Of a DNA stretch of 27,250 bases, positions 1,902-26,121 are shown in pieces (positions within the stretch are counted from its first letter, which is position 1; every line of letters begins with the position of its first letter). The notes beneath the pieces were generated by a model. It did no database searches. It saw only the letters and a program-made list of their open reading frames with translations, and was not told the DNA's origin. Source of the DNA: a virus. Made by a program: the position numbers and the translations under genes. The stretch is taken from IMG/VR virus record IMGVR_UViG_3300028025_003015, positions 1-27,250 of that record, one strand, 5' to 3'.

Positions 1902-1949
1902 ATGTGCGATCCAGAAGACGCTTTAATACAAAACATATCAAAACTATGA
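1902..1949 (+). pseudogene. Stranded 5' end of terL (candidate remnant)
   Basis: A 15-codon ORF, MCDPEDALIQNISKL, lies 21 bases after terS and stops with TGA inside an ATGA overlap with the HNH endonuclease start at 1946. If the 517 bases from 1947 to 2463 are removed, this peptide runs in frame into the terL body (SKL-KWTDHP), giving an ordinary-looking terL N-terminus. I infer it is the original terL start displaced by insertion of the endonuclease gene. Alternatively it is a coincidental leader peptide that couples translation of the endonuclease to terS. Comparison with uninterrupted relatives would decide. Confidence 0.45.
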
Positions 1950-2464
1950 GAAGTACTGAGAAAAATAAGTCACAAGAATTAATTAATGTCAAGGATATAT
2001 CCAATTATTTGGATTATAATTCAGATTCTGGCATTTTCGTTTGGAAGGTAAAAACAAAAACTAGCAATGCTGGTGATGTTGCAGGAAACGCAAATTGGCG
2101 TGGATACGTTTCTATCTGGATTAACGCAAAACCATATTATGCTCACCGATTAGCTTGGGCGTTTTGCAATGGAACATGGCCTATTGGAGATATTGACCAT
2201 ATAAACGAAAACAAGTCAGACAATAGTATTTTAAATCTAAGGGTTGCAAGTAGATCAGAAAACATGTTTAATCGTGGTTCTAATAAAAACAATACATCTG
2301 GGATGAAAGGGGTGGTTTTTTGCAAGAAAACAAATAAGTGGAGAGCGCAGATGATGGTTAATAGAAAAAGCGTCAATATTGGAAGATTTAAGACAAAAGA
2401 AGAAGCAGCAAATGCTTACATACTTAAAGCTCAAGAAATTAGGGGAGAGTTTGCTAAATGCTAA
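1946..2464 (+). CDS. HNH homing endonuclease with AP2 DNA-binding domain
   Basis: 172 aa from the ATG at 1946; an upstream in-frame TTG at 1877 would add 23 residues overlapping the terL remnant and is less likely. The core is an HNH_3-type nuclease: the AHRLAWAF helix, then the IDHINENKSDN segment with catalytic His and Asn, then LNLR. The C-terminal part, from SGMKGVVFCKKTNKWRAQMM to the GRFKTKEEAANAY helix, is a typical AP2/ERF DNA-binding fold that these phage enzymes use for site recognition. The gene is visibly more AT-rich than its neighbours, a sign of transfer. It sits between terS and terL. Its stop codon overlaps the present terL start by 7 bases, and a GGGGAG ribosome-binding sequence inside its last codons probably serves terL. 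There is no room for a group I intron, so it is free-standing. Confidence 0.9.
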   Translation: MRSTEKNKSQELINVKDISNYLDYNSDSGIFVWKVKTKTSNAGDVAGNANWRGYVSIWINAKPYYAHRLAWAFCNGTWPIGDIDHINENKSDNSILNLRVASRSENMFNRGSNKNNTSGMKGVVFCKKTNKWRAQMMVNRKSVNIGRFKTKEEAANAYILKAQEIRGEFAKC

Positions 2465-4059
2465 AGTGGACAGACCATCCAGTTCTTTCCGTTCCCACGG
2501 ATGAAGAAATCACTCAGATGAGTGCGGAAGAATTGATGGAGTTTCATCAAATCCGCGAAGAAGCTATTCGCAATGCTGCGAGAGATCCATTTAGATATGG
2601 ATGGAAGTTTGAAAACTGGAGAAAAGTTGAAGAATACTTATCAACCAGAAACGAAGTCCTAATCAGTGGAGGAAATCGTTCGTCGAAAACGCAGGTCGGT
2701 GCATACTTTGTTGTTAAGGCTGCTGTTGAAAATCCCAATTCAGACATTTTTTGCTTTGCTCAGAATGCCGAAGTTTCAATTCGCCAACAACAAGCAGCCG
2801 TATATGATTGGATGCCAGCAGAATTCAAAAGTAAGCAGACGAGCCAAAACACATACCTATCTTATTCAAGAAAAAATGGATGGACTGACAATTCGTTAAT
2901 TTTACCTAATGGTTCGCGCATTTCCTTTAAGACTTATGCAGCATTTGCAAACAATCAGACTATTCTGGAGGGTGCAGAGCTTGGTTCGAAAGAAGCGACT
3001 TGGTTAAACATAGGTGCTTGGTGCGACGAGATGCTTGGAGGGCCTGAGATAATTGACACGTTAAGATTTCGATTGGCAACTAGAAATAGTAAGATGATGC
3101 TTACGTTTACTCCGATCTTTGGATATACTGAGCTAATTAAGCAATATCTTGATGGGGCAAAAGTCATTGAAAGCAGAGAGGCTGAATTGCTCAATGGTGA
3201 AATTGTTCCCACAATTCTTGAGTGCAAGAATATCAAAGGAACTGTTCACTACTTTCACTCTCAAGATAACCCTTTTGGCGGTTACGACCGGATAAGGCAA
3301 ACATTAATTGGAAAGCCAAGAGAGGAAATCTTAATCAGGGCTTACGGCATACCAACTAAAGCAGCCGCCACCAAGTTCCCTAAATTCAACAAAGTAGTCA
3401 ACGTGGTCGATCCCGACAAGATTCCCAAGACTAACATCACAAGGTATCATGTTATCGACCCAGCAGGATCAAAGAACTGGTTCATGTGCTGGATCGCCGT
3501 AGATGAGACTGGAACAATGTGGGTTTACCGCGAATGGCCTGGGGTTGACGTTGGCGACTGGGCTGAATGGCGGAATGGTAAGTGGATGCCTGGCGAGGGT
3601 GCTAAAGGGCAAGGCTACGGTATCCGTGACTATGTTGACCTTATCGAGGAGATGGAAGGCGAAGAGGATATTTTCGAGAGGTTAATTGACCCGCGACTTG
3701 GAGCTGCAAAGTATCAGGTGCAGGATGGTTCATCTTCGATTATCGAGGATTTGAACGATGCTGGCATGGTTTGCATTCCTGCACCAGGGTTGGAGATTGA
3801 CGATGGATTACAAGCATTGATAGGGAAAATGGCATGGGACACGTCTAAGCCGTTGGATTCTGTCAATCGACCGCATTTCTACATTAGTTCCGACTGCGAG
3901 AACATCATCCAAGCATTATCGGAATATACTGGTGACGGTGGTTTAAAAGAAGCTCACAAAGACCCTATTGATGTATTACGCTACGCAGCCATCGCAGGAA
4001 TAGATCACGTTGACAATTCCGTCAGTTTAGTTACAACTCAGGGAGGTGGAGGCTATTAA
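2458..4059 (+). CDS. terL: Terminase large subunit
   Basis: Packaging ATPase and headful nuclease, 533 aa. The N-terminal ATPase shows a Walker A variant GGNRSSKT at residues 71-78 and a Walker B-type strand ending in CDE (residues 189-191). The C-terminal RNase H-like nuclease shows three acidic positions: D334 in HVIDPAG, D411 in RLIDPRL, and D502/D505 in KDPIDVLRYA. The start at 2458 lies inside the end of the HNH gene and is preceded 8 bases upstream by GGGGAG. This is one of the few clear Shine-Dalgarno sequences in the window, and it is supplied by the endonuclease gene. The upstream peptide at 1902-1949 may be the ancestral first 15 residues, so the protein could be slightly N-terminally shortened without touching the ATPase. 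Confidence 0.95.
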   Translation: MLKWTDHPVLSVPTDEEITQMSAEELMEFHQIREEAIRNAARDPFRYGWKFENWRKVEEYLSTRNEVLISGGNRSSKTQVGAYFVVKAAVENPNSDIFCFAQNAEVSIRQQQAAVYDWMPAEFKSKQTSQNTYLSYSRKNGWTDNSLILPNGSRISFKTYAAFANNQTILEGAELGSKEATWLNIGAWCDEMLGGPEIIDTLRFRLATRNSKMMLTFTPIFGYTELIKQYLDGAKVIESREAELLNGEIVPTILECKNIKGTVHYFHSQDNPFGGYDRIRQTLIGKPREEILIRAYGIPTKAAATKFPKFNKVVNVVDPDKIPKTNITRYHVIDPAGSKNWFMCWIAVDETGTMWVYREWPGVDVGDWAEWRNGKWMPGEGAKGQGYGIRDYVDLIEEMEGEEDIFERLIDPRLGAAKYQVQDGSSSIIEDLNDAGMVCIPAPGLEIDDGLQALIGKMAWDTSKPLDSVNRPHFYISSDCENIIQALSEYTGDGGLKEAHKDPIDVLRYAAIAGIDHVDNSVSLVTTQGGGGY

Positions 4060-4060
4060 C

Positions 4061-4330
4061 ATGATTGCAAAAAAAGAACCAAAGAAACGAGGACGACCAG
4101 CAAAGGTTGTTGAGGCTGTTATTACAGACATTCCAGAAGCTCAAGAAGCTCCATTGAAAGCAATGATTATAGGCACTTGCAACAACCCTACATGGGTAAG
4201 AGGAAGAATCGACGGATTTGGCGTCAATGTCAAAGTTTCCGCCCAAATGTCAAGACGCTTGATTGGAAAGGAAGTTAATGTTATCCTAGTCAATTCCGAC
4301 CTTGGAGATTACTACCAATATACAGCATGA
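4061..4330 (+). CDS. Small AT-hook-containing protein between terL and portal
   Basis: 89 aa from the ATG at 4061, chosen because a purine-rich GGAGGTGGAGG ribosome-binding sequence lies just upstream; a GTG at 4046 is in frame but lies within that signal. The N-terminus KKEPKKRGRPAK contains an AT-hook core (RGRP), suggesting DNA minor-groove binding. The rest (MIIGTCNNPTWVRGRIDGFG to the C-terminus) looks like a small beta-rich domain. I do not recognise the family. It overlaps the portal start by four bases (ATGA) and so is translationally coupled to head genes. A role in packaging or virion DNA handling is inference. Confidence 0.75.
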   Translation: MIAKKEPKKRGRPAKVVEAVITDIPEAQEAPLKAMIIGTCNNPTWVRGRIDGFGVNVKVSAQMSRRLIGKEVNVILVNSDLGDYYQYTA

Positions 4331-6393
4331 ATGATATTCAACAAATAGAAGATGAGTCACTTGTCTATGTGGACAAAGAACCTGATATTGGTGCGTTAGC
4401 GAATGCTTACGATACTTGTTTAATTGATCTTGATTACTACTTTGAGTCTTGCTTGCGTTCTTACAATGACCGTAGGAACATCTGGGATGGCAAATCTGAT
4501 GATCTTCGTAAAAACGGAGCGAATGCCTTTCCGTGGCAAGGTGCTTCCGATCAGGAAGTGAATGTTGTCGGGGAACGCATTGATATGTATGTCGCCTTGT
4601 TTGATCAAGCGTTGGCTCGTTCCCATATCAAGGCGTTCCCGACTTCAATGGCTGCAATGCCCAAGGCTGCTGTTGTTTCTGGCTTCCTTAAATGGATGCG
4701 TTCTTCTTACATTCCTGACTTTAAGCGTCAAATGGAGCTTGGTGGTAACTACCTAATGGAGAAAGGTATCATGGTTTCCTACGTTGGTTGGAATCGTGAG
4801 AAGCGTTCTTACCTTCAAAGTATCAGCCTAGAGCAGATTGGTGAAGCATCTCCTGACCTTGTTGAGTTGATTCTCAGCGGTCAAGATGATAAGATGTTAC
4901 TTGATTTGATTCAAGATTCCTTCCCTGACCTTTCTACCAAGAGAGCGAAGAAAGCAATCAAAGACCTTCGCAAGATGGGGGTGGCAGAAATCCCACTTCC
5001 TCGTCAAACTGTTGACTGTCCTGTTGTCTATGCTTGCGCTCCCGATGGTGAGGTAATGTTTCCATCTTATATTTCAGATCCACAACGCGCACCATATATG
5101 TTCTGGCGAACATTCCTCACGGCTCAAGAGCTAGAGAAGAAGGTAGCGAATGAAGGATGGGACAGAAAATGGGTAGATAATGCTATTGAAACACTCCGTG
5201 GAAAGGATTCCATGTATCTCGATGGCGAGAAGGTTAAGACCCAGACCCGCCTACCGATTACCGACGATAACGACCTTGTGATGGTTGTCTATGCGTATCA
5301 GCGTTTGATTGATGAAGAAGATGGTTCTGAAGGTATTTACTGCACAGTATTCCATCCACAGACAGAAGGCTTTGCAAAGCATGAACTCCTCAACGGATAC
5401 GATGATTATCCTTTCGTAGTCACCCGCCTTGCCAATGACCAAAAGAGGATGTATGAGGTGCAGACCTTTTCCGATATTCTCCGTGGCCCACAAATGCAAA
5501 TCAAAACAGAGCGTGACAGTCGCATTGACCGAGCGTCTCTTGCTACTTTACCTCCTATCATGCATCCTGCTGGAAGGCCTCCTTCTGATTGGGGTCCTGG
5601 TCGCAGAGTCCCGTATAGGCGTTTGGGTGAAATTGCATTCGGGCCAATTCCTCCGAGGGACGATGGTTCTGTTGAAAGTGAGCTTTCGATGCGTGGGCAA
5701 GCTGATCGCGCTATTGGTTTGGATCTTACGAATCCCCTTTCGTCGGCGCGTCAACAATACTACATCGGAAAGTTCCTAGATCATGTGAAGGATGTTCTTA
5801 CGATGGCGTGGAAGCTGTATCAACGGATGGGGCCTGATGAAGTTTTCTTCCAAGTTACCGGCAATCCTAACCCACAAGTAATGACCAAGGGTAGTCCAGA
5901 TGAGGATTTCTCAATTATGGTTTCCTTTGATTCCTTGTCGAGTGACCCAGAGACAGCGGAGACTCAGTTGAAGAACATGGTTCAGTTGGTTCAGTTGGAT
6001 CGTAACGGCATCATGGATGTGAACAAGCTACTTGAGTTTGCGGCTTCCTCGATCAATCCAATCTTTGCTGACTACGTTCTCCAGCCAGTTGAAGAGGCAC
6101 AGCAGAAGGTTGCAAAAAATGTTACTGACGATCTTGCTAAGATATTCTCTGGCATCGAAGTGCCAGCACAACCTAACGGCGCACAGATTGCCATGCAGAT
6201 GGTGCAAGCATACATCCAGCAGCCTGATGTTGCAGCTAGGGCGCAGTCTGACGAGGCTTTCGCAGGTCGCTTGCAGAAATACATGCAACAATATCAAATG
6301 ATGATAACACAAGCCCAGAACGCTGAGATTGGAAGATTGGGAACTGCACCTGCACAGATGGGTGGCGTAACAACTCAAGGAATGGAACAATGA
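4327..6393 (+). CDS. Portal protein
   Basis: 688 aa, the expected size for a large portal of the phiEco32/P22-like type, located directly after terL. The N-terminal half has the features common to such portals: a tryptophan-rich FPWQGASDQEV segment near residue 65, then long alpha-helical wing and stem regions. The C-terminus is glutamine-rich (QQPDVAARAQSDEAFAGRLQKYMQQYQ), consistent with the helical barrel. The portal forms the dodecameric ring through which DNA enters and onto which the tail assembles. The assignment rests on size, composition and gene order rather than one diagnostic motif. The start overlaps the preceding stop (ATGA), and the stop overlaps the next small gene. Confidence 0.85.
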   Translation: MNDIQQIEDESLVYVDKEPDIGALANAYDTCLIDLDYYFESCLRSYNDRRNIWDGKSDDLRKNGANAFPWQGASDQEVNVVGERIDMYVALFDQALARSHIKAFPTSMAAMPKAAVVSGFLKWMRSSYIPDFKRQMELGGNYLMEKGIMVSYVGWNREKRSYLQSISLEQIGEASPDLVELILSGQDDKMLLDLIQDSFPDLSTKRAKKAIKDLRKMGVAEIPLPRQTVDCPVVYACAPDGEVMFPSYISDPQRAPYMFWRTFLTAQELEKKVANEGWDRKWVDNAIETLRGKDSMYLDGEKVKTQTRLPITDDNDLVMVVYAYQRLIDEEDGSEGIYCTVFHPQTEGFAKHELLNGYDDYPFVVTRLANDQKRMYEVQTFSDILRGPQMQIKTERDSRIDRASLATLPPIMHPAGRPPSDWGPGRRVPYRRLGEIAFGPIPPRDDGSVESELSMRGQADRAIGLDLTNPLSSARQQYYIGKFLDHVKDVLTMAWKLYQRMGPDEVFFQVTGNPNPQVMTKGSPDEDFSIMVSFDSLSSDPETAETQLKNMVQLVQLDRNGIMDVNKLLEFAASSINPIFADYVLQPVEEAQQKVAKNVTDDLAKIFSGIEVPAQPNGAQIAMQMVQAYIQQPDVAARAQSDEAFAGRLQKYMQQYQMMITQAQNAEIGRLGTAPAQMGGVTTQGMEQ

Positions 6394-6476
6394 AAAAGAA
6401 GTCCACAGTCAACGCAGCAGGTAACTCTAGTAAGTCATTGACGCATTCTAAGCCTAAGCCTAAGCCTAAGAAGTAA
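6390..6476 (+). CDS. 28-aa lysine-rich peptide
   Basis: ATG overlaps the portal stop (ATGA) and its own TAA overlaps the next ATG (TAATG), so it sits in an unbroken translational chain. The product starts with MKKKSTVNAAG and ends in a KPKPKPKK tail encoded by a CCTAAG hexamer repeated in tandem (about 6448-6471). It is basic and probably unstructured. A nucleic-acid or scaffold-tail contact is possible, but no function can be assigned. Confidence 0.5.
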   Translation: MKKKSTVNAAGNSSKSLTHSKPKPKPKK

Positions 6477-6718
6477 TGGAAAAGAGGTTCACCAAGGTAG
6501 TCACGAATCCAGCCACGGGACGCAAGAGGACTGTGAAGTTTGGGCAAGCCGGTAAAGCGGCAGATGGTGGTGATCGTATTCGTCCTTCCACAAAAAAAGC
6601 AGACGCGTACTGCGCGAGATCCAATGCAATCAAAGGAGATTGGCGTAGTGACCCTAACTCACCAAATCAGTTAAGTCGAAAAAAATGGCGTTGCAAAGGC
6701 AGTAAATCAATGAAATAA
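6476..6718 (+). CDS. Small conserved basic phage protein
   Basis: 80 aa, strongly basic (pattern VTNPATGRKRTVKFGQAG, then KADAYCARS, then NQLSRKKWRC). I have an impression of similar short proteins next to portals in other phages, but cannot name a function. Two cysteines (AYCARS and WRCKG) could bind metal, though the spacing is not a classic zinc finger. It overlaps the upstream stop by one base. Confidence 0.75.
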   Translation: MEKRFTKVVTNPATGRKRTVKFGQAGKAADGGDRIRPSTKKADAYCARSNAIKGDWRSDPNSPNQLSRKKWRCKGSKSMK

Positions 6719-6722
6719 CTCT

Positions 6723-6854
6723 ATGAAAAAAACCAAATCAAATGGCTGCGGCCACGAAAGCAAGGAATACGGAAAAGGTAAAAAAGGCAAAGGTTACGTC
6801 GAGATTGAAATCAAGATGGGTAAAATGCCAAAGAAACCAACCAAACGTAAATGA
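6723..6854 (+). CDS. 43-aa Gly/Lys-rich small protein
   Basis: ATG at 6723, four bases after the previous stop, and TGA overlapping the next ATG (ATGA). The middle is glycine- and lysine-rich (EYGKGKKGKG), followed by a short strand-like stretch YVEIEIKMGK and a basic tail. Its main support is the tight packing between two coupled genes. The function is unknown. Confidence 0.55.
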   Translation: MKKTKSNGCGHESKEYGKGKKGKGYVEIEIKMGKMPKKPTKRK

Positions 6855-7063
6855 CACCATTCCCTAAACCAACCATCCAGCAAGCCGTTGAAGCTCTATC
6901 CGATCGTGATGAGTTCAAAGCTATCATCCAGTTCATCCAAGATGAGCGTGAGAGATTCTTTGCTGACCTTCGCCAGTGTGTAGAAACTAACGAGGTAATG
7001 AAGATTGTAGGAAGCGTTTCAACATTAGATGAGCTTCTATCTCTATTGAAAAAAGAAGGTTGA
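6851..7063 (+). CDS. Hypothetical helical protein, 70 aa
   Basis: Acidic, helical protein (TIQQAVEALSDRDEFKAIIQFIQDERERFFADLRQ) with no recognised domain. It is the last gene of the packaging/portal unit; a strong terminator follows about 65 bases after its stop. In many phages a short gene of this style follows portal, but I cannot assign a role. Confidence 0.7.
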   Translation: MTPFPKPTIQQAVEALSDRDEFKAIIQFIQDERERFFADLRQCVETNEVMKIVGSVSTLDELLSLLKKEG

Positions 7064-7127
7064 CATAAATCCATAAAATGCTTTTATTGATTCGCCGTTG
7101 TGTTTTTCGGCGTGTTTGTGTGTCGAG

Positions 7128-7164
7128 AGCCGTAGGGGTTAATCCTCTACGGTTCTTCTGTTTT
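7128..7164 (+). terminator. Intrinsic terminator closing the portal operon
   Basis: A stem of 11 pairs, AGCCGTAGGGG (7128-7138) with CCTCTACGGTT (7144-7154), including G-T wobbles, encloses a short loop and is followed by CTTCTGTTTT. Its partly symmetric structure could also stop leftward transcription from the gene ending at 7175. A weak second hairpin, CGCCG/CGGCG, lies at 7093-7112. Confidence 0.75.
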
Positions 7165-7174
7165 ACACTACTTA

Positions 7175-7579
7175 CTAGGTGATAGCTAAATGTGATTCAC
7201 GCATACGATTGTAAAGACAATTTGCTTGTTTGCTAAATGTTTCTCCATCGCTTGACATGAACCCTAGGGCAAATATGCGTTTAACTATATCTAGTCTATC
7301 TGATTCTAGCATCTTAATTTCCTCGATTAACGCATCGTATTTAAAGATGCATTGGCGAGCTGCATCAGCAAGAGCTTCAACCCAGTCAATCTCCCATCCG
7401 TTTTCCTTGGCAAGTTCATAGGACATATCAATCGGGAAACCTTCCTGATCGCGCATCGTAAATACGCCTTGAAGTTTAGGAACTCCATTAGTTTGTGACT
7501 TCAATCTTAGATGACTGGATTCAGATAGAATTACTGATGGTTTCAACATATTTACTGTGCGTTGTTTTGTTGATTTCAT
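7175..7579 (-). CDS. Leftward orphan hypothetical protein, 134 aa
   Basis: The only leftward gene in the left half. The start ATG at 7579 is preceded by an AACAAACAAACACA leader of the same style as the early genes, with no Shine-Dalgarno. The middle contains a motif, MRDQEGFPIDMSYELAKENG, that I associate with small hypothetical phage proteins; it is followed by an amphipathic helical region (WVEALADAARQCIFKYDALIEEIKMLESD) that may form a coiled coil. Sitting alone between the portal and scaffold operons in the opposite orientation suggests an accessory (moron-like) gene with its own promoter. The function is unknown. Confidence 0.65.
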   Translation of the reverse strand: MKSTKQRTVNMLKPSVILSESSHLRLKSQTNGVPKLQGVFTMRDQEGFPIDMSYELAKENGWEIDWVEALADAARQCIFKYDALIEEIKMLESDRLDIVKRIFALGFMSSDGETFSKQANCLYNRMRESHLAIT

Positions 7580-7683
7580 TGTGTTTGTTTGTTGCGGGGT
7601 TAGTTTCCCTTTTCTGTCATTTGATTCAAGAAGAATCAGTTCGTTTCACTCAAAATTATTCTCCCCGAGAGGATGAAGCCAAA

Positions 7684-8018
7684 CCGATCTCTTAGGGTTA
7701 CGTTTCCGTAATCCTATGTTCCTCGGTTCACCATGCAGAACCCCTGCTTCCAGAGACCTGATTCGGTTTTACGCTCTTCCCCCCGCTTCGGATTGTGCCG
7801 TTACGGATGCTAGGTGACAGATCGGAGTCAGAGCTAGCCGCGAGCCTAATGGTGATGAAGCCTTGCAGCTCCTTTGCCCGTTCACTTGGCTGTCTAGTTC
7901 CAAGAGAAACCAGCCCAAAAGAAAAGGGCTAGCACAAGTAGGTAGGATTACTCGGCTAGCCCTTTAACACTATGCTCTGAAGCCGTAGTGGGGAAAACTA
8001 TTACGTGGAGTCCTACCT
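7684..8018. other. Gene-free region with strong RNA-structure potential
   Basis: Between 7580 and 8180 there is no convincing gene, but 7684-8018 is dense in inverted repeats. Helices include AGGGTTACG/CGTAATCCT (7694-7702 with 7707-7715), GGTTC/GAACC (7725-7729 with 7738-7742), CTTGG/CCAAG (7885-7889 with 7900-7904), and an 11-bp stem AAAGGGCTAGC/GCTAGCCCTTT (7923-7933 with 7955-7965). The loop of that last stem carries AGGTAGGA (7940-7947), which pairs with TCCTACCT (8011-8018), an H-type pseudoknot. CCGATCT (7684-7690) can also pair with AGATCGG (7819-7825). It could be a non-coding RNA on either strand, a long structured leader of the leftward gene, or a DNA site. I do not recognise a known RNA family. 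Confidence 0.5.
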
Positions 8019-8124
8019 CTCGTCAACGGGAATCTACGCATATTTCTTAAACAACGCAACATCTTTTTTCATAGAGACTAAAAGTAAATTAAAACACCCG
8101 ATTGAAACGCATTAACATCCACTA

Positions 8125-8154
8125 TTGACAACTGTAACAAATTCGCGTTAATGT
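8125..8154 (+). promoter_or_regulatory. Promoter for the scaffold-capsid operon
   Basis: A perfect TTGACA (8125-8130) and TAATGT (8149-8154) are separated by 18 bases. The predicted start is near 8161, leaving a short leader to the ATG at 8181. It stands immediately downstream of the gene-free structured region and upstream of the most highly needed structural genes, which supports a real promoter. Confidence 0.65.
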
Positions 8155-8180
8155 GCTGCAAATCGCACCGCCGAGCGTAA

Positions 8181-10681: not shown

Positions 10682-10690
10682 ACCCAAACT

Positions 10691-11010: not shown

Positions 11011-11624
11011 TGCAAACAAGAACCTACGCTGAACTGCTGTCTTTAATCCAGTCATTGAGCGGGGTTATCTTTGCAACCCTTGAGCTTGGGAGAATCAAAG
11101 CTCTGATTAACCGCCGTGCATTAAGGGCGTATCGTTCGACTAATTACTGGCCTCGCTTCCTCAAGATCGGGGAAGAGCGCGTTGTCGCTAGTGATGTTGT
11201 TCCCTATACTGAATCCGGCAAGAGTTCGATTGATACTTACTTGCGTATTCATGTGCAAGCTCCGTATGTGACTACTTCCGTGCAGGAGTATGACATTATG
11301 GTGACGGCGGATGGTGCTACGTTGGTAGCTGGTAATACTGCCCCTACATCGGCGTTTGTTACTTACAAAGCGCAACTAAGTGATACTTACGGTGACGGGT
11401 CTGGCGAATCAACGGCAATCCCCGCTGAGTGGTATCAATACATGGCGCATGGGACTTATGCTGATTACCTCCGTGCTGAGGGACAACAAGAGAAGGCAGC
11501 GTTGGCAGACCAAGAAGCGGATATGTTGCTCCAGGAAGAAATGATTCGCATTGATGAGCAACATACATTACAGCTTGTTGCAAACAGGATTTTTACAAAC
11601 GCTAACATGCAGATGCGCTACTAA
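11010..11624 (+). CDS. Head-tail connector/adaptor-like protein
   Basis: 204 aa. The N-terminal helix (YAELLSLIQSLSGVIFATLELGRIKALINRRALRAYRSTNYWPRFLKIGEERVV) and the C-terminal AEWYQYMAHGTYADYLRAEGQQEKAALADQEADMLLQEEM stretch match the architecture of gp4-like adaptor proteins that ring the portal: helices around a beta insertion (residues 65-120). It lies downstream of the capsid genes and upstream of the fibre. The assignment is from overall pattern and order. A tail tubular protein is the main alternative. Confidence 0.6.
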   Translation: MQTRTYAELLSLIQSLSGVIFATLELGRIKALINRRALRAYRSTNYWPRFLKIGEERVVASDVVPYTESGKSSIDTYLRIHVQAPYVTTSVQEYDIMVTADGATLVAGNTAPTSAFVTYKAQLSDTYGDGSGESTAIPAEWYQYMAHGTYADYLRAEGQQEKAALADQEADMLLQEEMIRIDEQHTLQLVANRIFTNANMQMRY

Positions 11625-12622
11625 TGAATTACTCACTTGGAAATACACTTAGTAGAGGAGGGTCTTTGAATGCCGATGGGCTTTCCCTTAACCTCCAGTT
11701 CGCCACCGATAAGACCCTCACGGCTCGCAAAGGTCCCACCCCTGTGTTCACGAGGGCATCCACGGCTACCTTTGTTGGGAGTGATGGACTGATCCAATCT
11801 GCTGCTATTAACCAAGCACGTTTCGACCACGACCCTGTTACTCTTGCAAGCAAGGGGTTACTTATTGAAGAGAGCAGGACTAACTTGGTATTCCCAAGTG
11901 CAACGCTAACCACGCAAACGCGCACGGTCACGGCAACCGCCCACACGCTCTCGTTCTACGGAACAGGAACAGTTGTTTTGTCTGGAGTAGCCATAGCAAC
12001 CGTTACAGGAACTGGAGCTTATCCAACCCGCACCACGCTTACATTCACGCCGACCGCTGGTAGTCTTATTATGACTGTGACAGGATCAGTGACACAAGCA
12101 CAGCTAGAAGCAGGGAGCTTCCCCACGTCCTACATCCCGACCACCACAGCGTCCGTGGTTCGTAGTCAGGATCTTTGCTCGATTACTGGGAGTGACTTTA
12201 CGGGGTTCTATAACCAAAACGAGGGGACATTGTTTACGAATATCCAATCCACAGGATCTGGCGACAGGAGACCTGTTGCTTTCGATATAGGAAACAACAG
12301 TCAATCCTACAATTTTTATGCAACATCCGCATTAAGTAGATATGCACAAGCAAATGGCTCTTTAGGTAGCTTTACTATGGCTGGAACTGTTCCATCTACT
12401 CCTTTGCTCTATGCAGGGACGCTTAAACATGGAGATTATTCATTAGCTTTAAATGGCTCAATAGTTGGATCTTCAGCGGTATCGCTTGGTGCAACTTTTA
12501 CCGCTCTGCGGATCGGGGCAGGAGGTGGTGGCGGTGGGCAATTCCTTTGTGGACACATCGCCGCCATCCGCTATTATAAAAAACGCCTAGCCAATGCGAA
12601 ACTTATAACAATCACAACATAA
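11624..12622 (+). CDS. Fibre or head-spike protein with LamG-like C-terminal domain
   Basis: 332 aa, rich in Thr, Ser, Gly and Ala with low charge, typical of phage fibres. The front part (DKTLTARKGPTPVFTRASTATFVG, then LLIEESRTNLV) and QAQLEAGSFPTSYIPTTTASVVRSQD form the module common to phage spike/fibre proteins. It is followed by a concanavalin/LamG-like jelly roll (DFTGFYNQNEGTLFTNIQ, then LRIGAGGGGGGQFLCGHIAAIRYYKKRLANAKL) that may bind surface sugars. It overlaps the connector stop and the next gene start by one base each. It is the best candidate host-recognition protein in the window. Confidence 0.75.
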   Translation: MNYSLGNTLSRGGSLNADGLSLNLQFATDKTLTARKGPTPVFTRASTATFVGSDGLIQSAAINQARFDHDPVTLASKGLLIEESRTNLVFPSATLTTQTRTVTATAHTLSFYGTGTVVLSGVAIATVTGTGAYPTRTTLTFTPTAGSLIMTVTGSVTQAQLEAGSFPTSYIPTTTASVVRSQDLCSITGSDFTGFYNQNEGTLFTNIQSTGSGDRRPVAFDIGNNSQSYNFYATSALSRYAQANGSLGSFTMAGTVPSTPLLYAGTLKHGDYSLALNGSIVGSSAVSLGATFTALRIGAGGGGGGQFLCGHIAAIRYYKKRLANAKLITITT

Positions 12623-12912
12623 TGACTGATTATATTTTAAAATTTCCGTCCAAGTCCGTAGCAGAACAGTTCGGCATCGCCAGCGGTTACGCAGTGGACA
12701 ACGAGGGTATCGTAGAGACAACACTAGCGACCCACATGTATGCACTCCACGAGATCGGTGAGCATAACGGAACTGACTACTGGGTTCTATTCCGCGACCT
12801 TGTGGGCATCCCGATTCCCGAAGGTGCTGCACAGTTTATCTATTGGGCTTCCACAATGGATACCCCACGACCTGAAGATCAACCCGATGTTCCCAGCATT
12901 TTCTGGGCATAA
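12622..12912 (+). CDS. Small hypothetical protein downstream of the fibre
   Basis: 96 aa, acidic, with aromatic-rich end (FIYWASTMDTPRPEDQ...FWA). The start overlaps the fibre stop by one base (TAATG), so expression is coupled to the fibre. Many phages place a short tail-fibre assembly or attachment protein here, but no motif confirms that for this protein. Confidence 0.7.
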   Translation: MTDYILKFPSKSVAEQFGIASGYAVDNEGIVETTLATHMYALHEIGEHNGTDYWVLFRDLVGIPIPEGAAQFIYWASTMDTPRPEDQPDVPSIFWA

Positions 12913-12916
12913 TGCT

Positions 12917-13048
12917 ATGATTGAACCAGACGATGATGGAGATTGGGGCGAAGGCACAGGATCACCTTGTGACCGCGCACTAGACCTATTTCTCGGCGTT
13001 GGCTGGATTTTAGCAACCATCGCGCTATCTTATGCTTTTACCCGTTAA
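12917..13048 (+). CDS. 43-aa single-span membrane protein
   Basis: Acidic N-terminus (MIEPDDDGDWGEG) followed by a C-terminal hydrophobic helix, ALDLFLGVGWILATIALSYAF, then TR. The ATG at 12917 is the first in frame after the previous stop; longer in-frame starts lie inside the upstream gene. It opens the lysis block of three consecutive membrane proteins, so a holin or antiholin-type role is possible. Its small size makes it a moderate call. Confidence 0.5.
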   Translation: MIEPDDDGDWGEGTGSPCDRALDLFLGVGWILATIALSYAFTR

Positions 13049-13052
13049 ATCA

Positions 13053-13241
13053 ATGAACGAACACTCCTCACTTGCTCACACTCTTTGTAATGGACTCCTA
13101 GGAATGGCATCGACCAGCCTTGCCGTCATTACCTCGTTTCAGGAACAGATCGAATACAGCGTGAGAATGACGGGTGCGCTTATTGGTTGCGTAATCGGTG
13201 CAATTACTTTATACAATCTCCTCAGCAAAAAAAAGAAATGA
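13053..13241 (+). CDS. Two-span small membrane protein, holin candidate
   Basis: 62 aa from the ATG at 13053, just after the previous stop; an ATG at 13032 would add seven residues overlapping that gene. Two hydrophobic segments, NGLLGMASTSLAVITSF and MTGALIGCVIGAITLYNLL, are separated by a short charged loop, and the protein ends in a KKKK tail. This is the layout of a class II holin. It overlaps the next gene (AAATGA), which is the stronger holin candidate, so the pair may be holin and antiholin. Confidence 0.6.
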   Translation: MNEHSSLAHTLCNGLLGMASTSLAVITSFQEQIEYSVRMTGALIGCVIGAITLYNLLSKKKK

Positions 13242-13399
13242 AAACTGTAATCACATATCTACAATCAGAATCAACTTGGCGCGGAATTATCGCCATCGCA
13301 ATGGCACTTGGTATCAGCCTCTCACCTGAGCAACAAGGTGCTATCCTTGCCGGCGGTCTTGCACTAATCGGCTTAATCAACACCTTTAAAAAGGATTGA
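13238..13399 (+). CDS. Holin-like small membrane protein
   Basis: 53 aa from the ATG at 13238, overlapping the preceding stop as ATGA. The sequence TWRGIIAIAMALGISLSPEQQGAILAGGLALIGLINTFKKD has the pattern of a small phage holin family: a hydrophobic span, a conserved S-x-E-Q-Q turn, a second hydrophobic span and a KKD tail. Holins permeabilise the inner membrane at the end of infection so that the CHAP endolysin reaches the peptidoglycan. A longer in-frame ORF begins at 13187, but its extra residues lie inside the neighbour. Confidence 0.7.
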   Translation: MKTVITYLQSESTWRGIIAIAMALGISLSPEQQGAILAGGLALIGLINTFKKD

Positions 13400-13611
13400 A
13401 CCTTTTAAACACAATCAACCTTGCTCTCCGTGCCTATATTCTGTGGGTGGAAAGCTCGGTTGGTCGTGAACTCGATAACATTGAAGATGAGATCGACACC
13501 CTTGCTGCTAGTGGCACTCCTGTTGACAAGTTGCGCATCGAAAGACTCGCTTCCCGCCTTCAACGTAAACGCGAGCGCATTACACGATCCAGAGACGATT
13601 CACCTGCTTGA
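13396..13611 (+). CDS. Putative inner spanin-like coiled-coil protein (TTG start)
   Basis: 71 aa. The TTG at 13396 overlaps the holin TGA (TTGA); no in-frame ATG exists near the 5' end, so this non-standard start is the reasonable choice. The N-terminus (LLNTINLALRAYILWV) is moderately hydrophobic and the rest is a charged helix (GRELDNIEDEIDTL ... DKLRIERLASRLQRKRERITRSRDD). A lipoprotein gene starts inside it in another frame, the layout of Rz/Rz1 pairs, so an inner-spanin role is likely. The weak membrane segment is a caution. Confidence 0.55.
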   Translation: MNLLNTINLALRAYILWVESSVGRELDNIEDEIDTLAASGTPVDKLRIERLASRLQRKRERITRSRDDSPA

Positions 13612-13729
13612 CGGGGTGGAATACACCTTTGCAGAGGGAACACTAATGGGGCGTGGTCAACGCTTCCATAATGACTATTCATACCGCCGTGCTGTTATCA
13701 TCGGTGAAAAAGGCAGAGTAACTAAGTAA
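13487..13729 (+). CDS. Lipoprotein, putative outer spanin embedded in the preceding gene
   Basis: 80 aa from the ATG at 13487, in the +1 frame relative to the upstream gene and overlapping its 3' part by 125 bases. The N-terminus MRSTPLLLVALLLTSC is a compact signal peptide with lipobox L-T-S-C, so the mature 65-residue protein would begin at Cys16 and be lipid-anchored. Overlapping out-of-frame genes of this kind are the hallmark of Rz1-type outer spanins, which disrupt the outer membrane with the inner spanin. The C-terminus (NDYSYRRAVIIGEKGRVTK) is not proline-rich as in lambda Rz1. If correct, the host is a diderm. Confidence 0.65.
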   Translation: MRSTPLLLVALLLTSCASKDSLPAFNVNASALHDPETIHLLDGVEYTFAEGTLMGRGQRFHNDYSYRRAVIIGEKGRVTK

Positions 13730-13736
13730 TACAAGT

Positions 13737-14426
13737 ATGAATACAAATCAATCGAAAGGTCTTGTAGAAGAAATCATCCGCATCGCCAAAGCTGAAGATA
13801 ATCATTGCGTTTATATCCACAAAACATCTGACACTTGTTCTATTTTTTACGTTGGGCGGGCAGTGAAATCAATTAGAAGAGGTAGATTTGAAAGAGCCTT
13901 TTCAACCAAACAAAGAAGTGCATTCTGGAAGGCTATTGTTGAAAAGCATGGTTTTATAGTATCAATTGTTTCAACTTTCGAAACAAAAGAAGAAGCTGAT
14001 AATGAAGAAAGAAGATTAATTTCTTTTTATGGTAAGCGTTGCGATGGTGGGATTTTATGCAATCTTGCTGATGGAGGACAAGGTAATGTGGGTAGTCCTA
14101 GAACAATTGAGTGGAGACAAAAAATATCATCTTCCCATAAAGGTAAAAAATTAACCGATGAGCATAAAGCAAAATTGAGCTTAGCACACAAAGGAGTCGC
14201 ACTTACTGATTCCCATAAACAAGCTATTGGCGAATCCTCTAAAAAATTAAAAAACTTTAAATTAAATGATCCCGATGTAAAAGAGAAATCTAGACTAGCA
14301 AGATCCAAGGTTAAGCGTAAGCCAAGAACTAGGGAACATCAAGATAAAATCAATGCTGCAAACAAAGGGTCTAAAAGAAGTTTGGAATCTCGTCTTAAAA
14401 TGTCATTAGCTGCACAAAAAAAATGA
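13737..14426 (+). CDS. GIY-YIG homing endonuclease with NUMOD3-type repeats
   Basis: 229 aa. The GIY-YIG nuclease begins near residue 24: CVYIHKTSDTCSIFYVGRA holds the two signature strands (VYI and YVG), with a catalytic Arg in the following helix and E92 in the EEADNEERRLI helix. The C-terminal half has repeated basic NUMOD3-like DNA-binding motifs (KISSSHKGKKLTDEHKAKLS, AHKGVALTDSHKQAIG, REHQDKINAANKG), as in Seg/I-TevI-like enzymes. Its first 18 residues are different in kind: LVEEIIRIAK matches residues 4-13 of the endolysin that follows. The gene is AT-rich compared with neighbours. It lies between spanin and endolysin, and its stop overlaps the endolysin ATG. Confidence 0.92.
   Translation: MNTNQSKGLVEEIIRIAKAEDNHCVYIHKTSDTCSIFYVGRAVKSIRRGRFERAFSTKQRSAFWKAIVEKHGFIVSIVSTFETKEEADNEERRLISFYGKRCDGGILCNLADGGQGNVGSPRTIEWRQKISSSHKGKKLTDEHKAKLSLAHKGVALTDSHKQAIGESSKKLKNFKLNDPDVKEKSRLARSKVKRKPRTREHQDKINAANKGSKRSLESRLKMSLAAQKK
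13764..13790 (+). repeat. Direct repeat: start-proximal endolysin codons, upstream copy
   Basis: 27 bases encoding VEEIIRIAK at the start of the GIY-YIG gene match 14435-14461 in the endolysin gene (VEEIVRIAK) at 21 of 27 positions, beginning with an identical GTAGAAGAAAT. All differences are synonymous or a single Ile/Val change, so both copies have been kept as coding sequence. The two copies flank the endonuclease. Confidence 0.75.
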
Positions 14427-14929
14427 AAGATATGGTAGAAGAAATTGTTCGCATTGCTAAGTCGCAAGTTGGCGTGAGAGAAATCGGCAATACGAACTGC
14501 GGTGAAATTGTAGATCAATACAAAGCAGCAACATGGCTGAACCCAAAGAAAGGTTGGGCGTGGTGCGCAGCTTTTGTATGCTGGGTAATCCGCGAGGCAC
14601 TAGCATCATCTGGCACAAAACAAACCAAGACATTCAAGCGTCCTCGCACGGCTGGAGCGTGGGATTTTGAGAACTGGTCAATCGACCAAGATTCAACAAC
14701 GTGGTTACGGAGAAATCCTGCTGGTGACATTATACCTGGCGACATTGTAATGTTTACCTTTTCCCATATCGGCATTGCCGTATCATCCCCTGATAAGAGT
14801 GGTAACGTCACAACCGTAGAAGGAAATACTGACACGGCTGGATCTCGCGAAGGAGGAGGTGTTTACCTAAAGACACGAAACATTTCAAAGATTCGTTCAC
14901 GCATTCGTTTCAATATCAAACAAGGATAA
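14423..14929 (+). CDS. Endolysin, CHAP-domain peptidoglycan hydrolase
   Basis: 168 aa. The catalytic Cys48 lies in GWAWCAAFVCW, the His115 in FSHIGIAV, and the E133/N135 pair in VEGNTD, the C-H-E/N arrangement of CHAP amidase/endopeptidases. The whole protein is one catalytic domain with no separate cell-wall-binding domain, usual for phages of diderm hosts. There is no signal peptide, so it would depend on the upstream holin. The ATG overlaps the stop of the GIY-YIG endonuclease (ATGA), so the gene is now translated by coupling to a mobile element. A second copy of its first codons is found at the start of that element. Confidence 0.9.
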   Translation: MKDMVEEIVRIAKSQVGVREIGNTNCGEIVDQYKAATWLNPKKGWAWCAAFVCWVIREALASSGTKQTKTFKRPRTAGAWDFENWSIDQDSTTWLRRNPAGDIIPGDIVMFTFSHIGIAVSSPDKSGNVTTVEGNTDTAGSREGGGVYLKTRNISKIRSRIRFNIKQG

Positions 14930-14930
14930 C

Positions 14931-15239
14931 ATGAAGATAACGCTACCCGCATTCATAAGTATAGGCGGGAGGCGAATAGCTATCCGCATTGACCCTAAGT
15001 TAGAAGCATGGGGAGAATATCACGCAGATGAACGTGAAATAGTTCTTGCATCGAGAACACTTGAGAAGCAGTCTACCATGCGTGAGACGCTGCGCCATGA
15101 AATACTTCACGCATCTCTTGACATTGCTGGATTATCCTATCTAACTACCTATCAAGAAGAGGCAACAGTTCGTTGCATTGATAACATTTTTCACCCTGCA
15201 TGGGACAAAGTTCGCAAACAATTAATTCCATCAGAATGA
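14931..15239 (+). CDS. Small zincin-type metallopeptidase-like protein
   Basis: 102 aa. The helix MRETLRHEILHASLD carries HExxH (H56, E57, H60), and E76/E77 in TTYQEEATVRCID could supply the third zinc ligand, as in gluzincin- or ImmA/SprT-like small proteases. The N-terminus forms short strands (ITLPAFISIGGRRIAIRI then YHADEREIVL). It begins one base after the endolysin stop. The substrate is unknown. Its place in the lysis block allows a cell-wall or anti-host role, while related small phage proteins are often called putative peptidases without proof. Confidence 0.7.
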   Translation: MKITLPAFISIGGRRIAIRIDPKLEAWGEYHADEREIVLASRTLEKQSTMRETLRHEILHASLDIAGLSYLTTYQEEATVRCIDNIFHPAWDKVRKQLIPSE

Positions 15240-15296
15240 GTAAACAACTGCACAAAAAGCAGTTATTATGTCCAGTTTGAGCAACATTATACGCAA

Positions 15297-16097
15297 ATGA
15301 AACCATTAAAAAGTAAGTCAAGAATCATCGTTCTTTTATCAGACCTTCATATCGGCTCGGTTGTCGGGCTATGGCCGTCTGAGTTTATCTGTAACGAGGG
15401 ATTCCCCATCGGGCAGAACCCGTTCCAGAAATGGTTGTGGGCTTGTTGGGAAGATTGCCATCAATGGATTGCTAAAACCGTAGGTGATGAACCTTACGAT
15501 CTGGTAATTAATGGAGACTTGGTAGAAGGTATCCACCATCGGACAACCCAAGTTATGAGTGCAGATGTTGGAGATCAATCTTCCGCTGTCATTCAGATTC
15601 TTGAACCTATCACAAGCAAGGCTGCTAGTGTCCACATCATCAAAGGAACAGAATGCCATACGCGCAATGACGAGATTCGACTAGGTAGAGCTTTAGGTGC
15701 ATCGAAGAATCCTGAGAACGGACAAAACGCTTGGGATAACTTGGACATTGAAATCAATGGAACGCTTATTAACTTTGCTCACCATATCTCTGCAACCTCC
15801 CGTCCGTATCTTGAAGCAGGAGCGCACAGTATCGCCTTAGGAACTATCACTCATTCCCGTGCAAGGGTCGGCAAACGTGTCCCATCGGTTATCTGCCGAG
15901 CGCATCGCCACCGGCACGGCATCTGGACAGACGGAAACCAAGCATCGCTCATAACAGGCGCGTGGCAGGGGCTTACCCGTCATGGTCACAAGGTTGTCCC
16001 AGATGCGATCACAGAGCCTTCCTGCATCATCCTCGATACAAGGACAACCGACAAGGGCGACCTCCCACTATTTCATCAACGTAAATACATACCGTAA
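15297..16097 (+). CDS. Calcineurin-like metallophosphoesterase
   Basis: 266 aa. Metal-binding motifs occur in family order: SDLHIG (D16, H18), NGDLVEG (residues 72-78, D74), KGTECHTRND (residues 116-125, replacing the classical GNHD/E box), AHHIS and AHRHRH near residues 199-204. These are the five blocks of calcineurin-like phosphoesterases, which include Mre11/SbcD nucleases and small phosphodiesterases. No capping or coiled-coil domain is present, so a nuclease or a nucleotide/phosphoprotein phosphatase are both possible. The 57-base gap before it holds a small AACTGC/GCAGTT hairpin (15246-15264). The stop overlaps the next start (TAATG). Confidence 0.85.
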   Translation: MKPLKSKSRIIVLLSDLHIGSVVGLWPSEFICNEGFPIGQNPFQKWLWACWEDCHQWIAKTVGDEPYDLVINGDLVEGIHHRTTQVMSADVGDQSSAVIQILEPITSKAASVHIIKGTECHTRNDEIRLGRALGASKNPENGQNAWDNLDIEINGTLINFAHHISATSRPYLEAGAHSIALGTITHSRARVGKRVPSVICRAHRHRHGIWTDGNQASLITGAWQGLTRHGHKVVPDAITEPSCIILDTRTTDKGDLPLFHQRKYIP

Positions 16098-16327
16098 TGG
16101 CAAAAAGCATCCCCAAAGTAAGTGGCATGGACTGGATTGTTGAGAATCTAAACGAATCCATTCTTGAGCCAGACGAGTTCACAGCGAGAATGGTAGCAGA
16201 CAAAGCAAAAACATCCTTAGCAGCAATTAGGTGTAAGCTGCAAAGGATGTTTGATGCTGGCGAAGTAACCAGACGCAAGATTTTAGAAGATGGTCACCAA
16301 ATCAACGCTTACAAGCGCGTGGTTTAA
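16097..16327 (+). CDS. Small helix-turn-helix-like protein
   Basis: 76 aa. Residues 27-60 (DEFTARMVADKAKTSLAAIRCKLQRMFDAGEVTRRKI) look like a winged-helix or HTH segment: a resistance helix, a recognition helix and a short wing ending in NAYKRV. It is the last rightward gene, coupled to the phosphoesterase by a one-base overlap. A DNA-binding regulatory role is inferred. Its stop codon overlaps that of the opposing gene (16324-16327), with no terminator between them. Confidence 0.65.
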   Translation: MAKSIPKVSGMDWIVENLNESILEPDEFTARMVADKAKTSLAAIRCKLQRMFDAGEVTRRKILEDGHQINAYKRVV

Positions 16328-16527
16328 AAATCATGTTCTGATTCCGTGAAATCATAGTATTGGTGGATTCTTTCCATGATGGCTGTGAAAACAGCTTCCT
16401 CGATTTGCTCGAAAGATGGATCTTCCGTGTGCTTGTGCGCTCTGGAAACTCCATAACGGCAGCCTTCTTCAATGCAGTTGCTTATTATTACTAGGTGTTT
16501 TGGTTTCATATTATTGTTTAGTTCCAT
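16324..16527 (-). CDS. Hypothetical acidic protein, 67 aa
   Basis: The last gene of the leftward operon. The start region overlaps the ruvC end by 17 bases, which suggests translational coupling; a second in-frame ATG lies six codons in. The sequence has a helix with EEAVFTAIMERIHQYYDF and several His/Cys residues (NCIEEGCRYGVSRAHKHTED), but no finger pattern that I can name. The function is unknown. Confidence 0.65.
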   Translation of the reverse strand: MELNNNMKPKHLVIISNCIEEGCRYGVSRAHKHTEDPSFEQIEEAVFTAIMERIHQYYDFTESEHDF

Positions 16528-16933
16528 ATTTTGCGAGAAGTAAAGAATCTGCGGTTGCGTGAGTAACCTTCATGCTGGGGAAAAGCTCTTGTGCCTTACG
16601 CTTGGAGACATTCTTATCACCTTTCGTCATGCATCCAAGCTCTTTCTGCCATACTTGTGGACGCACTCTGGTGAAAGGAATCCCCGCTGCCGTAAGTGCC
16701 ATCTCAAGGTGTCCAAATCCATTGCCAAAAGTGAAGGCGGAGACAACTCCCATCTGAGGTGAGCTGTGGACTTGCTCAAGGTAAGCATGGCAATCTCCTT
16801 CGCTGGCAATGTCGCGGAGTAACTCCCACAAATCTTGTAGGGTGTCAGGCATCTTCTCAACGCAGGGTTTCCCGTCAGTAATCCATGCGATACCGCCATT
16901 GACTCCTGGATCAACCCCTATTACACAAGGCAT
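16511..16933 (-). CDS. RuvC-like Holliday junction resolvase
   Basis: 140 aa, RNase H fold. D8 in VIGVDPGVNGG is the first catalytic Asp, E53 in YLEQV the second acid, and D129 in THATADSLLLA the third. The SSPQMGVVSAFTFGNGFGHLEMALTAAG block is typical of phage RuvC-type resolvases. It would clear branched DNA before packaging or act in ERF-driven recombination. The ATG at 16933 lies 13 bases inside the end of the HNH endonuclease gene, whose own N-terminus copies this protein's IGIDPG...GGI motif. This suggests that the present start is a replacement created by the insertion. Confidence 0.9.
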   Translation of the reverse strand: MPCVIGVDPGVNGGIAWITDGKPCVEKMPDTLQDLWELLRDIASEGDCHAYLEQVHSSPQMGVVSAFTFGNGFGHLEMALTAAGIPFTRVRPQVWQKELGCMTKGDKNVSKRKAQELFPSMKVTHATADSLLLAKYGTKQ

Positions 16934-17685
16934 AATTTGTTTCCCTTTCTAATATTGGCTTTTGATTCCAATGGTTGGATATTCTTAATAGCCCAACATT
17001 TCTTAAACGCTTCACAATCTGGAGTTGTGAACTTAAACCAAGAGGCAGGGGTTATATGATCCATATGCCAATAAGTTCCATAGTTATCCCAATTCATTTT
17101 TTTGTCAAATTTTGATTCCAAATGGTCACAAAGTTGTTTTGTTGTATAACCTAGTAAGTCTTGCCATTTCCTATTGTTTTTTGTCCCCCTTTTCACATAA
17201 GACAGAATTGATCGGCGCACGTTGTCTTTTATTCGCTTTCTAATTTTTACAACTTCTGCTCTTTTCTTCATGATTTCTATTCTGCATTCTTTAGCGCAAT
17301 ATGGGCTTTGGTATTTAGCTCGCTTCTGGGTAAAGTGTTTTCCACAACCCTTGCATTTCTTGTTAATTTCTCCTCCTTTATAATTGGGGTTAAGTGATCC
17401 ACTTAATGAAGATCGGTAACAAAAAGAGGAGCAAAAGTTACGCTTAGTGGATGGGTCTTTTAATGCACAAAATTCCATTCCGCATCCCGCACATATCATT
17501 GTGTGATTGCTTTTATATCCAACAATTGAAGGTAATCCCGGCTTCATTAGCGGAACATCATGCCCTTTCTTCCTCAGGTTATACCTTTGGCTTCGAGTGA
17601 GTTTTGAGTAATCCATACCAAACAATAATTCAATACCCCCGCTTGTCAATCCCGTGCCAGGATCTATGCCGATTGTAGTTTTCAT
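16921..17685 (-). CDS. HNH homing endonuclease fused to a RuvC-like N-terminus
   Basis: 254 aa. The first 18 residues, MKTTIGIDPGTGLTSGGI, are the beginning of a RuvC resolvase. After a basic linker (KLTRSQRYNLRKKGHD) come two cysteine knuckles (CAGCGMEFC ... CSSFC and CKGCGKHF ... YCAKEC). The HNH nuclease follows near the C-terminus (YWHMDHITPASWF ... NIQPLESKANIRKGNKL). The architecture is that of phage HNH homing enzymes with zinc-binding targeting modules. It is AT-rich relative to neighbours and overlaps ruvC by 13 bases. The D8-like aspartate alone cannot make the fused piece a resolvase. Its start is probably the ancestral ruvC start. Confidence 0.9.
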   Translation of the reverse strand: MKTTIGIDPGTGLTSGGIELLFGMDYSKLTRSQRYNLRKKGHDVPLMKPGLPSIVGYKSNHTMICAGCGMEFCALKDPSTKRNFCSSFCYRSSLSGSLNPNYKGGEINKKCKGCGKHFTQKRAKYQSPYCAKECRIEIMKKRAEVVKIRKRIKDNVRRSILSYVKRGTKNNRKWQDLLGYTTKQLCDHLESKFDKKMNWDNYGTYWHMDHITPASWFKFTTPDCEAFKKCWAIKNIQPLESKANIRKGNKLCLV

Positions 17686-26118: not shown

Positions 26119-26121
26119 GTT

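Follow-up and report, generated by a model that had tools for sequence, protein, structure and literature searches.

The window analysed here, a virus record of 27,250 bases (IMG/VR record IMGVR_UViG_3300028025_003015), carries three homing-endonuclease genes, which lie directly before terL, the endolysin gene and ruvC. The nucleases at the endolysin and ruvC are probably cassettes inserted by an "end swap", while that at terL is probably a conventional free-standing intergenic gene; judged from sequence comparison, we give this combined reading a probability of about 0.86. An end-swap cassette would consist of the nuclease open reading frame (ORF) together with a copy, diverged at synonymous positions, of one end of its target gene, which it enters a few to about 35 codons from that end. 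The body of the target would be joined to the foreign end, so that the essential protein remains complete, and the native end would be left stranded beyond the nuclease. Where orientation and frame allow, this native end would become part of the nuclease, supplying its N-terminus and start at 5′ sites and its C-terminus and stop codon at 3′ sites. The mode shared by these insertions is, on this evidence, gene-end replacement and not the capture of translation.

A first-pass annotation had described the three nucleases as unrelated enzymes that each displace the start of an essential gene. Matches to Pfam and PHROGs agree that the families differ, with HNH_3 plus AP2 at terL, GIY-YIG plus NUMOD3 at the endolysin, and an HNH/endonuclease-VII type at ruvC. 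All three are free-standing GIY-YIG or HNH ORFs outside any intron or intein; no Rfam match, to an intron or otherwise, was found in the window. The sites are polymorphic for presence and absence in close relatives, being empty in L007/L008 (endolysin), L083/L086 (ruvC) and L166/L171/L179 (terL), where L numbers denote loci compared with the window. The overlaps of 7, 4 and 13 nt between each nuclease and terL, the endolysin and ruvC, respectively, are real but nothing special. In our own gene list, overlaps occur in 17 of the window's 33 pairs of neighbouring same-strand genes (9/22 on the plus strand and 8/11 on the minus strand), and in nuclease-free relatives the starts of both the endolysin (L002, L009, L011) and ruvC (L082, L085 and others) are ATGA sequences overlapping the preceding stop. 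Because overlapping starts are the norm, overlap length was dropped as evidence for the mode of insertion.

Native gene ends displaced at ruvC and the endolysin

The clearest case is ruvC, on the minus strand. The RuvC-like resolvase gene (16511..16933; phrog_1770, 6e-25) follows an HNH/endonuclease-VII-like homing-endonuclease ORF (16921..17685; phrog_1271, 5e-11; phrog_1035, 1e-6) with zinc-finger-like CxxC pairs and HMDH and N residues, whose catalytic-type columns are invariant in alignment A1. The first 11 codons of this ORF (17653..17685), encoding MKTTIGIDPGT, resemble the RuvC start MPCVIGVDPG; the start-anchored pair scored 35, a value exceeded by 1 of 527 nulls drawn from the flanks of other loci. 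When compared with the ruvC start of the empty-site locus L083, the nuclease-borne copy matched at 25/27 nt and the present ruvC start at 14/27, despite a gene body about 90% identical to L082 and L083, which argues that the nuclease-borne end is the native one. The first ~13 codons of ruvC (16895-16933) are accordingly foreign. Their identity to relatives is 54-56%, against 89-90% for the body, a drop more extreme than in all 43 background pairs; among relatives these codons are usually 11 points less conserved than the remainder (standard deviation 9), and the difference between the window and L082 is 36 points. The upstream gene, ending ...KALDIR*, is common to the window and empty-site L086. 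The native start of ruvC thus sits on the nuclease, with ruvC bearing a foreign start that restores the DPG motif. The RuvC downstream of the nuclease is complete (phrog_1770 over residues 3-139), and its present N-terminus is full-length and includes the DPG active-site motif.

A scan with the pattern C-V-I-G-x-D-P-G for a donor of the present ruvC start gave 18 loci, none near-identical (best 31/39 nt), and in IMG/VR single-sequence patterns found nothing closely related to the HNH nuclease of the window. Upstream of ruvC in L120 (2771-3013), a truncated zinc-knuckle/endonuclease-VII-like ORF of 80 residues overlaps by the 13 nt also seen in the window and has the look of a nuclease that has decayed in place. 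In L089-L100 and L130, the region upstream of ruvC holds adjacent small ORFs with similar MxDTPxTD or TPETD starts and ERERDEA-type coiled-coil-like stretches, a small paralogous family.

At the endolysin, on the plus strand, the nuclease ORF spans 13737-14426. Its first 20 codons (13737..13796; MNTNQSKGLVEEIIRIAKAE) are the putative displaced native 5′ end, and the remainder (13797..14426) is the GIY-YIG/NUMOD3 coding part (phrog_314, E=7e-21), in which NUMOD3 scores above its cut-off and GIY-YIG 0.7 bits under its own. The endolysin itself (14423..14929), which has a CHAP domain, begins with a second, diverged 5′ end, MKDMVEEIVRIAKSQ. The two starts resemble each other with a pair score of 53, higher than all 358 nulls from other-locus flanks (maximum 52). 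In empty-site L007/L008, a spanin-like gene is followed by ATGGCAACAAATCAAAAAAAAGACCTTGTA..., and the window matches these loci in upstream flank, stop and leader, with the first 20 nuclease residues coming right after the L007/L008-type leader. The residues KSQ of the present endolysin start are common only to the lineage L002-L006, and the later part of the endolysin and its downstream flank are closest to L007/L008, mostly 82-97% identical in 60-nt bins. A start-codon scan found no in-frame start in the nuclease before residue 43, past the YVG motif, and the GIY-YIG nuclease therefore depends on the captured endolysin start. In the recoding comparison, the drop in identity over the first 20 endolysin codons was not unusual against background. 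Relatives of the GIY-YIG nuclease in IMG/VR reached 34-36% identity in the best long matches, none of them before an endolysin.

The first-pass claim that the original 5′ ends of these two genes were fused to the nucleases holds at both loci. The further suggestion of a new start for each target, if this is taken as a makeshift one, does not: the RuvC N-terminus is full with its DPG motif, the endolysin downstream of the nuclease is complete (CHAP; phrog_9589 from residue 4), and its short start occurs natively in the nuclease-free loci L009, L011 and L013.

End swaps at other genes and in other phages

An exact before/after pair is found at the 3′ end of the portal gene: the empty locus L163 and the filled locus L362 have 100% identity across 1215 nt to the left and 500 nt to the right, up to the limits of the compared loci. 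Between these flanks, L362 has 729 nt in place of 10 nt in L163. The insert consists of a 109-nt foreign portal 3′ end with its stop, followed by an HNH ORF that continues in frame into the displaced native end of the portal gene and terminates at the native stop codon. The new portal end of L362 matches the nuclease-free lineage L169 at 77/81 nt and the displaced end is L163's own (81/81), while the two ends within L362 agree at 55/81 nt. In L361, the same new end (81/81) and a nuclease 92-99% identical to that of L362 adjoin a different native end.

The first-pass annotation had proposed looking for nucleases elsewhere whose first residues match the downstream gene, and two such cases were found, at the helicase loader of L144 and in the cultured Pseudomonas phage MPK9. 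In L144, an endonuclease-VII-type nuclease starts MNTLRGFPKR and the downstream DnaC-like helicase loader MNTLKGFPHR; the upstream flank through the start is common to the empty sites L146/L149, and the homologous nuclease of L280 starts differently, without a captured end. MPK9 (L470, OP868670.1) is one of 2 among 20 named loci that display an end swap, the other being Verrucomicrobia phage P8625, in which the terL 3′ end is involved. The N-terminus of the MPK9 nuclease, annotated as "hypothetical protein", is formed by 31 codons of native TerS. This captured start is continuous with an upstream flank which, over the aligned stretch, is 100% identical to that of HB2107-3I, one of three empty-site relatives along with YA3 and Tr60_Ab31. 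The TerS gene downstream is a hybrid, with a foreign N-terminal half 50-63% identical to YA3 for ~210 nt, followed by 83-100% identity. A candidate from Escherichia phage phiv205-1 (L491, MN340231.1), named "HNH homing endonuclease", was rejected, being apparently a mis-named TerS in the same gene and place as the TerS of CUS-3.

A six-frame survey of flank against flank covered 179 distinct nuclease ORFs from hand-chosen families, which condition its frequencies, with the null maximum of 52 (n=358) as threshold. Fourteen of the 179 exceeded it, and about 8 of these were gene-end duplications on inspection; the other hits were tandem, low-complexity or ambiguous. Only 2 of 220 non-nuclease control genes passed the threshold (Fisher p=4e-4), and by a conservative count 1 non-nuclease gene compares with 8 nucleases (p=0.008). 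Surveys of ORF pairs or of N-termini only under-detected such cases; the flank-versus-flank survey and an anchored survey of starts and ends, which added short cases, exposed those at 3′ ends and with inverted nucleases. Within the window's phage group, besides the helicase loader 5′ end (L144), the cases are at the 5′ end of an MSSPVSYDL gene with an inverted nuclease (L317, L356, L357), the portal 3′ end (L361, L362, L320), the endolysin 3′ end with an inverted nuclease (L340), and the 3′ end of a small ORF (L353, L355). In other phages they are at the terL 3′ end (L408/L414), the dnaX 5′ end (L248), and two genes with inverted nucleases (L311, L459). Hits at L249, L275, L293, L335, L406, L413, L419, L430, L456 and L461 were dropped as tandem nucleases or low complexity. 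A duplicated N-terminus in L263 (MEAKQV...LMEAYASVY) was set aside because it lies in non-nuclease genes. There (1080-2350), as in L256 and L269, adjacent or neighbouring genes have a common N-terminal M[ED]A(K/Q)..LxEAY..VY, which may serve virion proteins as a propeptide or as a tag for binding the scaffold.

The terL nuclease and its upstream hairpin

The gap between terS and terL holds a free-standing HNH_3/AP2 homing-endonuclease gene (1945..2464, plus strand; HNH_3 E=4e-16, AP2 E=9e-11), which most close terL relatives also carry, with a AAATGCTAA-type junction like that of the window. The first-pass annotation had counted terL (2458..4059, plus strand) as a third displaced start, which comparison with nuclease-free relatives does not bear out. 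In L179, which lacks the nuclease, the sequence reads ...GATTCTTAAT-ATGCTAAAATGG, with terL beginning MLKWTEHPVL straight after the terS stop; L171/L173, also without the nuclease, have GTGCTAAAGTGG, with terL starting GTG-LKWTEHP, at the same residue as in the window. L166 is a deletion remnant, in which the leader gataaaaaacaagc runs straight into the final codons of the HNH gene, aagaggggaatttgctaa, with terL (at 3001) intact. The terL start has its own Shine-Dalgarno-like gaggggag, located in the nuclease tail. The stretch 1881-1944, read earlier as the old 5′ end of terL, is occupied by a hairpin (1889..1923, plus strand) with a fold z-score of -3.1 in the window and of -4.8 and -6.5 in relatives. 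Across 12 relatives, 93% of its pairs are formed, both sides have changed in 5 of 12 pairs, and its covariation score was reached by 0 of 500 shuffles. The same start in nuclease-free relatives, together with a leader that is a hairpin, argues that terL was not displaced, and it was removed as a third case; an unchanged start in such relatives is the observation that the first-pass annotation itself had named as refuting. By these comparisons, its nuclease is an ordinary intergenic free-standing insertion with no gene end captured. Taken as a whole, the first-pass description stands for the three nucleases, their overlaps, and the endolysin and ruvC ends, where the native start was taken over; its terL remnant, its new starts in the sense of makeshift ones and its translational coupling do not stand.

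Two further features of this locus were observed. The join in L166, a footprint of nuclease loss, apparently lies across a short AAGC repeat. The hairpin, found in the window and in L162-L196, is followed by a short U run and may attenuate or otherwise regulate the nuclease or terL; such upstream hairpins serve regulation in several T4-type nucleases (PMC2988022). Elsewhere in the window, CA/GT dinucleotide repeats at 26100-26200 (HTHTHTHTH in a minus-strand ORF) lie just upstream of the probable start of an ArdC/zincin-like gene.

Mechanism, alternative explanations and known systems

Direct comparison establishes the anatomy of the end swaps, the identity of the native copy, the foreign origin of the other copy, the recurrence at several genes and at both gene ends, and one before/after pair. 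It is from these that we infer how a swap may arise. The nuclease would first break a nuclease-free allele within its native end. Repair would then draw on a co-infecting donor phage that has a nuclease at that gene end and would supply both nuclease and end, with one exchange by homologous crossover within the body of the gene and the other by joining the sequences in place, over a short range, at the cut. The diverged end would leave the new allele without a cleavage site and rescue the essential gene, and the displaced and new copies (about 50-74% identical) would be too unlike for recombination to excise the insert cleanly. That the nuclease so often gains the native start or stop would be a consequence of the swap and not its cause. 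Cleavage of the native end by the nuclease and immunity of the swapped end are thus proposed steps of the model. From sequence, the model places the predicted cleavage sites at or close to the position at which the displaced native end is cut short, and it could be tested directly with the L163/L362 pair and the MPK9/YA3/HB2107-3I set.

The first-pass annotation had favoured a takeover of the start with translational coupling, in which the target is translated only through the nuclease, protecting the latter from loss. Native starts are captured at the endolysin, ruvC, L144 and MPK9, and the window's targets begin at or inside the nuclease stop, as this would require; however, terL exhibits neither capture nor displacement and has a Shine-Dalgarno-like sequence of its own, L166 lost the terL nuclease yet kept terL and its start, and overlapping starts are usual in the window and in nuclease-free relatives. 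Insertions of the same type are also found at the 3′ ends of the portal, endolysin and terL genes and of a small ORF, and with inverted nucleases, for which coupling of target to nuclease is impossible, and protection by coupling is improbable. That a gene end was simply duplicated on insertion, by fill-in or target-site duplication, with later drift of both copies, could account for copies that directly flank the nuclease on both sides and for a divergence built up over time. Against this stand the new ends of ruvC and MPK9, far more diverged than the gene bodies, and above all the portal pair: flanks 100% identical, copies differing at 26/81 nt, and a new copy matching L169 at 77/81 nt argue strongly against duplication and drift, which is very improbable. 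Phage nucleases do split genes, as in the case of mobE in Aeh1 nrdA (PMC2988022), and group I introns commonly host homing-endonuclease genes (HEGs), so the upstream fragment might be an exon rejoined by splicing or a piece rejoined by subunit assembly. This is almost certainly not so in the window, which has no Rfam match; each downstream gene is whole, having a second end in full and its own start codon, and the upstream fragment of 10-31 codons is redundant and fused to the nuclease.

A more serious alternative is passive mosaicism, in which the nucleases only mark recombination boundaries and the duplicated ends result from imprecise exchange, bringing the nuclease no advantage. HEGs are known to occupy exchange boundaries in phages (PMC10448857), and a donor with an adjacent nuclease, together with one homologous and one illegitimate crossover, yields these structures. 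The recurrence at many genes and at both ends, the precise placement and small size of the replacement (109 nt in L362), and the frequency with which the captured end completes the nuclease in frame speak against it, and we regard it as unlikely, though worth keeping in view. What chiefly separates the two accounts is whether the cassette gains protection from the swapped end.

Several results weigh against the end-swap reading itself. At the endolysin, both copies match L007 at 28/39 nt over a 39-nt core, and the assignment of copies rests on the leader, three residues and flank identities of 70-97%; since the short core does not discriminate, the division into native and foreign copies is weaker there than at ruvC. 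No exact empty parent or donor was found for the endolysin and ruvC nucleases. Some hits over the survey threshold (L249, L335, L413, L419, L461) were tandem nucleases or low complexity, and more than 160 of the 179 surveyed loci have no detectable end duplication, so that the end swap is, as judged from this sample, one mode among several for phage nucleases.

If correct, end swapping would explain how a selfish nuclease can reside within essential phage coding sequence without an intron or intein, and gene ends would be mobile cargo, producing hybrid genes and mosaic boundaries at the scale of a single gene. Annotation pipelines will mis-name such nucleases, as with that of MPK9 and its 31 TerS codons, and mis-date the hybrid genes. 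No earlier description of a phage or N-terminal end swap was recognised in the literature searched, the coverage of which leaves out most subscription journals.

The nearest described structures are gene hybrids formed by mobile ORFs in fungal mitochondria, including Allomyces atp6, Glomus sp. atp6, atp9, cox2 and nad3, Rhizopus atp9, and Mortierella cox2 (Beaudet et al., 2013; PMC3630166). There too, an endonuclease ORF with a foreign, synonymously diverged end has entered an essential gene to form a hybrid, and the native end, displaced beyond the endonuclease, is closest to insertion-free relatives. The phage nucleases are likewise flanked by two copies of one host-gene end, with the displaced copy native and the used copy foreign at ruvC, the portal and MPK9 TerS, and partly resolved as such at the window's endolysin. 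The fungal cases described are C-terminal only and involve LAGLIDADG enzymes (one GIY-YIG), whereas the phage cases are N- and C-terminal (N-terminal in the window; C-terminal in its relatives L362, L340 and L353), involve HNH and GIY-YIG nucleases in either orientation, and often have the displaced end completing the nuclease ORF.

Free-standing Seg and Mob nucleases of the T4 type are typically intergenic and cleave hundreds to thousands of bp away (Edgell, Gibb and Belfort, 2010; PMC2988022). They have in common with the present genes a GIY-YIG or HNH identity, a position beside conserved genes, overlapping frames, upstream hairpins in some cases and co-conversion of flanks, but no duplicated target end is described in that review. 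The terL nuclease of the window fits this class; those of the endolysin and ruvC do not. In the mobE insertion (Friedrich et al., 2007, as cited in PMC2988022), a nuclease likewise lies inside a conserved coding region, but nrdA is split and stays in two parts, whereas in the window a second copy of the missing end makes the gene complete: the endolysin and RuvC are whole downstream. Self-splicing flanks, the mark of introns and inteins, were not found, the downstream gene having its own complete 5′ end. HEG islands (Barth, Dunham and Seed, 2023; PMC10448857) similarly place nucleases exactly at mosaic boundaries beside essential genes; replacement of a gene end with capture of the native end by the nuclease is absent from the portion of that account consulted.

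Synthetic home-and-rescue drives (HomeR; PMC7968924) resemble the end swap only in how they work, by homing in an essential gene together with rescue. They are engineered CRISPR constructs, and in the phages resistance of the swapped end is what we infer. The chances are about even that phages carry natural "home-and-rescue" cassettes as a general class, built on several nuclease families and entering at either gene end, in which the swapped end would provide rescue and immunity and the captured native end the start or stop of the nuclease. The end swap would then be a concrete natural counterpart to home-and-rescue gene drives.

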